Assembly: GCA_022791455.1 (NCBI GenBank)
Contig: JAAVZC010000008.1
Span: 186,001 to 250,000 of the forward strand
Reading direction: 5' to 3'
DNA length: 64,000 nt
From: Eggerthellaceae bacterium
GTDB taxonomy: Bacteria > Actinomycetota > Coriobacteriia > Coriobacteriales > Eggerthellaceae
The position numbers and the translations under genes were made by a program. This document shows, one piece after another, positions 14,436-14,728 of the stretch (within the stretch, counting starts at the first letter, position 1; each line of letters starts with the position of its first letter). The notes under the pieces are model-generated. The model saw only the letters and a program-made list of their open reading frames with translations. It did not search any database and was not told the DNA's origin.

Positions 14436-14462
14436 AAAAAAGCGGACGCTTTCGCGTCCGCT
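14436..14462 (-). terminator. Minus-strand terminator hairpin
   Basis: AGCGGACGC, loop TTTC, then its complement; read on the minus strand it is followed by a T-run (AAAAAA on plus). It could end transcripts crossing the tRNA-like segment. Confidence 0.75.
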
Positions 14463-14469
14463 GCAAGTT

Positions 14470-14612
14470 TGGTGGAGCATAGGGGGCTCCGGAAACGCCT
14501 GCGGCGTTTCCGACCCTTCGCGATCACAGATCGCTCAGGTTAAGCGCTACAAAAGCCCCACTGGGGCTTTTGCTTTACGCGCTTCAACCTCATCGGTTCG
14601 ATCCCCCTATGC
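14470..14612. repeat. Palindromic segment flanked by inverted tRNA-Ala 3 prime-end fragments
   Basis: The left end (14470-14486, TGGTGGAGCATAGGGGG) is identical to the 3 prime end of the nearby tRNA-Ala. The right end (14595-14612, GGTTCGATCCCCCTATGC) is an inverted 18-nt match to its T-arm and acceptor. Between them are nested hairpins: GGAAACGCC/GGCGTTTCC (14490-14510), GCGAT/ATCGC (14520-14534), AGGTT-AAGCGC/GCGCTTCAACCT, and AAAAGCCCC/GGGGCTTTT (14551-14571). It could be a scar of integration or tRNA duplication, or a structured RNA. No gene is seen in it. Confidence 0.75.
14551..14571. terminator. Bidirectional terminator-like hairpin
   Basis: AAAAGCCCC, loop ACT, GGGGCTTTT: a perfect 9-bp stem with A/T runs on both sides, at the centre of the tRNA-flanked palindrome. 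Confidence 0.65.
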
Positions 14613-14619
14613 AAGAAAA

Positions 14620-14645
14620 GAAAAAGCCGTCCAGAAGGACGGCTT
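14620..14645 (-). terminator. Terminator of tRNA-Ala
   Basis: On the minus strand AAGCCGTCC, loop TTCT, GGACGGCTTTTT, starting 8 nt after the tRNA CCA end. Confidence 0.85.
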
Positions 14646-14652
14646 GGATGAT

Positions 14653-14728
14653 TGGTGGAGCATAGGGGGATCGAACCCCTGGCCTCAAGATTGCGAACCT
14701 TGCGCTCTCCCAGCTGAGCTAATGCCCC
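14653..14728 (-). tRNA. tRNA-Ala (anticodon CGC)
   Basis: 76 nt on the minus strand with encoded CCA. Acceptor GGGGCAT pairs with ATGCTCC, including the G3:U70 pair that alanyl-tRNA synthetase recognises. The D-arm is GCTC...GAGC. The anticodon stem is CAAGG/TCTTG with loop TTCGCAA, so anticodon CGC reads GCG. The T-arm is AGGGG-TTCGATC-CCCCT. It lies downstream of the Veg-like gene on the same strand and has its own terminator. Confidence 0.97.

Follow-up and report, generated by a model that had tools for sequence, protein, structure and literature searches.

Apparently undescribed gene-free, hairpin-rich elements behind tRNA genes of gut Coriobacteriia, with ends that match the local tRNA

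The tRNA-Ala(CGC) gene in the window (the whole stretch of DNA that was analysed, 64,000 nucleotides of an Eggerthellaceae bacterium contig) is intact, and the sequence beside it holds two further pieces of the 3' half of the same gene, one direct and one inverted, on either side of a strongly folded segment. The question raised by this locus is what the segment is and how it came to be bounded by pieces of its neighbour. A preliminary description of the DNA had offered two answers, the scar of an excised element and an RNA that mimics tRNA. Sequence comparison confirmed that both pieces are exact: 17 nt in direct orientation to the tRNA (TGGTGGAGCATAGGGGG, 14470-14486), which copy the tRNA-Ala 3' end with the CCA complement included, and 18 nt at 14595-14612, which include the end of the core and are an inverted copy of 14660-14677 (Table 1). 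The inverted piece is, as had been remarked, at odds with simple duplication by an integrase. The structure that had been seen in the segment is also real, with folds far below those of shuffled sequences on both strands (RNA folding, z -6.9 on the plus and -7.8 on the minus strand, with 0 of 200 shuffles as good; DNA folding of the minus strand, z -8.8). On the minus strand a terminator-like hairpin follows each of the two tRNA copies; shuffles are expected to give 1.5 such sites, so that two are not significant alone. No recognised gene lies within the unit, and the mechanical open reading frames of 68 and 84 aa that overlap it were taken as chance.

Table 1. Features of the tRNA-Ala(CGC) locus and the adjoining unit (positions in the window)
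Feature	Position	Strand	Basis or remark
Intact tRNA-Ala, anticodon CGC (anchor gene)	14653-14728	minus	ARAGORN; Rfam tRNA, 63.6 bits
D1, proximal direct-repeat copy of the tRNA-Ala 3' end	14653-14672	minus	within the anchor gene
Terminator-like hairpin of the tRNA transcript	14624-14645	minus	consensus match only
I arm, inverted tRNA-Ala T-loop, T-stem and acceptor 3' strand, after TTC	14600-14612	plus	
Core, 110 nt	14490-14599	plus	fold; family alignment and covariation; covariance model
Core hairpin H1	about 14491-14511		
Core hairpin H2	about 14520-14534		
Core hairpin H3	about 14540-14584		
Small hairpin at the core end, terminating in the family signature ACCTCATCGGTTC		plus	
D2, direct copy of the tRNA-Ala 3' end, T-loop to CCA	14470-14489	minus	19 of 20 nt
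Terminator-like hairpin behind D2	14441-14462	minus	consensus match only

BLAST matches to the window segment were found in 48 of the 138 genomes of the same family, some of them to the tRNA-derived ends only. The neighbourhoods of the better matches showed the same layout behind other tRNAs, with ends fitting each local tRNA. This recurrence in many other genomes, with ends matched to other tRNAs, is the strongest argument that the arrangement in the window is not a product of chance. A family alignment was made from 27 copies, chosen by the ACCTCATCGGTTC motif with up to three substitutions allowed, and a covariance model with 39 pairs was built on the alignment. Compensatory changes were present in 28 of the 39 pairs, arm pairs included, while the invariance of ACCTCATCGGTTC across all 27 copies is partly due to their having been picked with that motif. 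In the window the model matched 14478-14611 at 118.2 bits. With strict filters, it placed the unit in 69 of the 138 genomes of the window's family, which is a lower bound, and in 123 of 396 genomes of the class, a count that takes in weak matches outside the order, accepted as they stood, in six genomes (E 1.9e-7 to 2.4e-4). A phylum-wide sample gave 7 positive genomes out of 396, all from the window's order. The signature ACCTCATCGGTTCRA occurred at 121 places in 45 of the 138 family genomes, and its reversed pattern at none; among 84,980 species genomes a signature pattern picked out 43 stretches, from Eggerthellaceae, Coriobacteriaceae, Coriobacteriia bacteria, Slackia, Parvibacter, Enterorhabdus, Curtanaerobium, Hugonella and Candidatus Aveggerthella. 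In other words, the oddity in the window belongs, as a single copy, to an apparently undescribed family of elements of gut Coriobacteriia that are short, free of genes and rich in hairpins.

The unit is about 150-200 nt long and its core about 105-110 bp, and outside the family the core ends differently. Variant cores were also seen, in which a long uninterrupted hairpin replaces H3, the core is shortened, or an extra hairpin is present (L172, which is G352:C7:83607-83740, L179 and L043). Single hairpins therefore seem dispensable. For the counts that follow, 142 model matches were listed; 121 were entered, 16 were omitted as repeats and 5 as weak or at contig ends, leaving 118 distinct copies. 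A later set to which 33 further matches were added by hand came to 141 rows, and 135 distinct copies with an I arm were used from it.

Placement behind tRNA genes was consistent. A called tRNA or tmRNA gene lay on the opposite strand, in one fixed orientation, for 110 of the 118 distinct copies. The distance was 15-72 nt for 97 copies, and 184-415 nt for 13 copies, which were outer members of tandem units. Eleven tRNA isotypes were represented in addition to tmRNA: Ser (45), Leu (15), Gly (14), Ala (8), Arg (8), Gln (7), Lys (6), Glu (2), Met (2), Asp (1) and Thr (1), with tmRNA once; a tandem pair in Collinsella (L278) is a further case at tmRNA. Among the eight copies that had no call, four (L137, L151, L156 and L220) have a tRNA 3' end and T-loop at the expected place, one (L162) has a partial tRNA 3' end, and three (L170, L206 and L216) lie at most 47 nt from the end of a sequence. 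At L137, L156 and L220 the neighbouring tRNA 3' end is normal and the whole gene uncalled; in the first two of these the tRNA seems to stop halfway.

The end pieces follow the local tRNA rather than other isotypes. D2 matched its own tRNA 3' end at 20 of 20 nt in 94 of the 135 copies, a set that includes some copies, mostly tandem or decayed, in which the D2 search found no repeat. For the I arm, the mean contiguous match was 7.9 nt to the own tRNA and 3.1 nt to other isotypes, and 0 of 2000 permutations were as good; the own match reached at least 6 nt in 114 copies and at least 8 nt in 56, stayed below 8 nt in 79, and was 19 nt at its longest. The three bases after TTC agreed with the local tRNA in 130 of the 135 copies (GAA 81, GAG 30, GAT 11, AAG 4, AAA 3 and GAC 1). 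Because the TTC position had been picked to give the own tRNA its best match, the own value is somewhat favoured, and a separate, position-free test was therefore made: I-arm pieces of 8 nt followed by GAA were found in the 250 nt downstream of 70 out of 288 tRNAs, and in no case upstream. A few of these 70 matches lay at 137-227 nt, inside or past an adjacent tRNA, and since the 288 tRNAs came mostly from loci fetched for the element, the 70 are no estimate of frequency.

Cores were compared among 77 copies from genomes of the window's family that had a tRNA within 100 nt. For 62 of the 77 copies the nearest core stood behind a different tRNA; for 33 it lay within the same genome. Mean core identity was 0.82 between different tRNAs within one genome and 0.69 for the same tRNA across genera. 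Several pairs were nearly identical: the cores behind tRNA-Arg (L131) and tRNA-Met (L132) of one genome (G138) shared 99% of their positions, those behind tRNA-Gly (L109) and tRNA-Ala (L110) of another (G124) 97%, and those behind two tRNA-Ser genes (L124 and L125) of a third (G129) also 97%. In such pairs the identity starts at the T-loop border, with tRNA bases that are common to both genes, and stops just past the second TTC, in tRNA-like bases. Beyond these borders the terminators and flanks are unrelated, except in L124 and L125, where the shared sequence continues through the terminator. Nearly identical cores behind different tRNAs, with sharing that stops at TTC/GAA, indicate that the core has spread between tRNA genes. 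The orthologous tRNA-Ala(CGC) gene of a related genome (G001), in the same gene context, is without the unit.

The duplication often extends past the tRNA itself, and the preliminary description was right that the tRNA 3' end has been duplicated in an attachment-like way. In 44 of 74 copies the two flanks shared sequence beyond CCA to a degree that exceeded the 99% control level; in an ungapped test, fewer than 10 nt were repeated beyond CCA in 54 of 87 copies. Some young copies have a direct repeat that spans the T-loop border, the terminator and the I arm, and in L107 it runs for 69 nt beyond CCA with 0 mismatches. Because the repeat of young copies includes the I arm, this arm may be part of the target that was duplicated, or of an earlier unit, and not of the insert. 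Behind the tRNA-Ser(gct) gene of G160, tandem units follow one another at 183-nt steps. Twelve Collinsella tRNA-Ser(gct) loci were compared, of which five had the core and seven were without it; among the seven, the I arm was intact in four and altered in three. These coreless loci fit a loss of the core between direct repeats as well as a target that already bore an I arm, and the loci compared included no clean pair of near-identical strains before and after insertion. Collinsella tRNA-Arg(acg) genes stand in tandem, some with a unit behind them and some without (L284:13285-14025, L288:5223-5966 and L262:5428-6361). In G276 the spacer between two tRNA-Arg genes (L289:6124-6440) holds the start of a unit only; it is a truncated unit and not an empty site, and resembles what a deletion would leave.

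Another structured repeat, also dispersed, was encountered in the same genomes: GTGCCCCAGAT ... AGATGGGG, in many cases accompanied by a hairpin like GCGTACTTCGGTACGC. Its copies number 6, 6 and 7 in the three genomes that represent the window's genus and, with these three included, it is present in 10 of 60 relatives; a reversed control gave 0. Examples are L068 (reverse complement of 700-1300), L069 and L067, and six exact copies in G000, such as G000:C10:533637-533713. In L067 and L069 it lies between the tRNA terminator and the I arm.

With the placement, the TTC/GAA borders, the target-matched ends, the movement of the core, the duplication and the arrays all observed, the segment is probably best understood as an element without genes and rich in hairpins, some 105-110 bp long, which spreads among the tRNA and tmRNA genes of Coriobacteriia. 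On its far side stands a duplicate of the tRNA 3' half, with the terminator in many copies, and on its near side a short inverted T-arm. A trans-acting recombinase, or a nucleic-acid intermediate, would deliver the core to the palindromic T-loop sequence TTCGAA, and what it reads would be the universal T-arm. The recombinase or a strand-switching event would act at the T-loop in such a way that the tRNA 3' half is duplicated and the gene survives; the tRNA would thus stay intact because its 3' half is doubled, and, with TTCGAA being palindromic, one tRNA half supplies both flanks of the core, one from each of its strands. The flanking direct repeats would then allow arrays to grow and cores to be lost, and the structure of the core would be kept since movement, host function or both need it. 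A fuller form of this reading is offered more tentatively, as somewhat short of an even matter: any tRNA or tmRNA gene may serve both as target and as source of the ends, and a folded, gene-less nucleic acid may insert at the T-loop palindrome, duplicate the 3' half and terminator, carry the host's inverted T-arm and build arrays by way of a novel recombination system.

Several known systems share parts of this picture. The T-loop is a known crossover place of integrases, and the border of the element is also there. The tRNA and tmRNA islands of tyrosine integrases (Islander, PMC4383910) likewise target tRNA and tmRNA genes, leave the gene intact and have a displaced 3' fragment at the far end. 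Islands and element accordingly have in common that the tRNA 3' end is repeated directly at the distal border. An internal integrase gene is absent, the unit being too short at about 150-200 nt, and so is the restriction of one attachment sequence to one tRNA target, as the 99% and 97% identical cores behind different isotypes demonstrate. Unlike these islands, the element also adds an inverted T-arm copy, and in many copies the terminator is duplicated as well. The REP/BIME repeats associated with RAYT transposases are short, gene-less, palindromic and dispersed, and are presumed to be mobilised in trans. The element resembles them in these respects; it differs in being bound to tRNA genes, in having multiple hairpins and in taking its ends from the target, and it has no association with the Y1 (RAYT) family. 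Integron attC sites are folded imperfect palindromes with pairing ends, and their cassettes form tandem arrays. The element is also folded with pairing ends and also forms such arrays, but it is without a recognised cassette gene, its target is the tRNA T-loop and its ends vary with the tRNA. MITEs are short non-autonomous elements with duplicated target flanks and terminal inverted repeats that are normally fixed; the element is similarly short and flanked by duplicated target, whereas its arms change with each tRNA.

The search for a mobilising enzyme across genomes covered two families. Of the 69 element-bearing genomes 39 had Y1_Tnp (PF01797), against 32 of the 69 element-free ones (Fisher p 0.31); RVT_1 (PF00078) was present in 12 of 69 carriers and 18 of 69 others (p 0.30). 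Neither was associated with the element, and one genome with 10 copies (G030) has neither. A Y1 transposase or a reverse transcriptase was rejected as mobiliser, since its presence does not follow the element, which also sets the element apart from retroelements. An origin in phages or plasmids was likewise rejected: the window segment had no match in 50,697 phage and 72,556 plasmid records at E 1e-5. The signature CCACCTCATCGGTTCGA was found in 0 viral contigs, and GACCTCATCGGTTCGA in 7, for which the covariance model gave no match at E 0.001. At 14 fetched signature places (L264-L277) no longer, autonomous version was recognised; a covariance search of these places at E up to 1 gave 13 partial or weak matches of 10.8-51.4 bits, and none in L266. 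Against Rfam 15, only tRNA reached its gathering score in the window, and in four loci searched at E up to 5 nothing except tRNA rose above a family's gathering score. A hammerhead ribozyme was rejected after inspection by eye found no complete core. Searches of an open-access literature library showed no description of the element; the supplementary tables of PMC8040213 might list the motif. On these open-literature and Rfam 15 negatives, the family appears to be undescribed.

The main alternative is that the unit is a host-serving RNA, transcribed on the tRNA strand, which would act on the processing or level of the tRNA. In such an RNA, I' would pair with D2 and close a multi-hairpin molecule that ends like a tRNA, with T-stem strand, acceptor strand, CCA and terminator; the terminator-like hairpin behind D2 in the window agrees with this, and a tRNA-mimic RNA of the kind that had been suggested for the window is possible. 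Rare recombination would have carried copies from one tRNA locus to another, in the manner of a gene family. Besides the compensatory changes in the structure, the conservation of the unit at orthologous sites supports this alternative. In six Collinsella tRNA-Ser(CGA) loci the core, the I arm and the base of D2 were conserved, along with part of about 55 nt adjoining D2, while terminator and spacer varied; one of the six has an unrelated far left flank. Similarly, the tRNA-Leu(caa) cores of two Parvibacter genomes (L188 and L196) were 94% identical, with spacers that could not be aligned by eye. That the core is kept while spacers and terminators vary argues for a maintained function of the structure. 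Conservation at orthologous sites exceeds what a purely selfish element needs, and it counts against the explanation preferred here. The preliminary description had proposed that conservation across genera would favour a functional RNA over a scar, and the core was indeed conserved across genera in the loci looked at.

In the stems of 100 copies, from folds that forbade G-U, there were 4328 Watson-Crick pairs and 58 isolated mismatches, which on the plus strand were 5 G-T, 24 A-C and 29 other. The mismatches thus lean to G-U on the tRNA strand, with 5 distinct G-T contexts and 16 distinct A-C contexts, which counts for this alternative. The difference in folding energy between the strands was 7.67 in the observed and 6.73 in shuffled copies; being nearly the same in shuffled copies, the lean may reflect base composition. 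Against a host-serving RNA there also count the half of the family's genomes that are without a match (the 69 positive ones being a lower bound), the placement of the unit behind different tRNAs in different genomes, and individual hairpins that vary or are missing in some copies. This alternative appears possible and somewhat doubtful as the main account; it may also be true alongside the mobile-element explanation.

It is rather unlikely that the units arose with no dedicated enzyme, by template switching during replication at TTCGAA, in which the core of another tRNA locus would be copied and the strand would fold back to leave an inverted arm and repeats. Both borders are the same short palindrome, the length of the contiguous I-arm match varies widely (up to the longest noted above), and the stems are nearly all Watson-Crick, all of which speaks for such a process. 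Against it stand the regularity of the borders from genome to genome and the fact that all finds of the unit come from a single bacterial class, T-arms being universal. The scar of an excised, tRNA-specific genomic island, which was the first proposal for the window, is highly improbable: the direct repeat, which covers 17-20 nt of the tRNA 3' end, does stop in the T-loop as in integrase islands, but the segment is itself a recurrent unit whose homologous core, accompanied by an inverted arm and found in tandem too, stands behind eleven isotypes and tmRNA, and no integrase was among the families listed for its neighbours (25 of 64 Pfam families for 50 neighbouring proteins, 50 of the 73 picked ORFs having been scanned), so this proposal was rejected.

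If the mobile-element explanation is true, the T-loop of any tRNA would be a generic landing site for gene-free DNA. It would explain a sequence form that recurs behind the tRNA genes of gut bacteria, as in the records of Slackia, Parvibacter and Enterorhabdus, and it would open the search for the machinery that mobilises it. If the units are instead host-serving RNAs, they would add a class of tRNA-linked RNA. Under either reading, tools that use tRNA fragments as the ends of islands could misread copies of this family.
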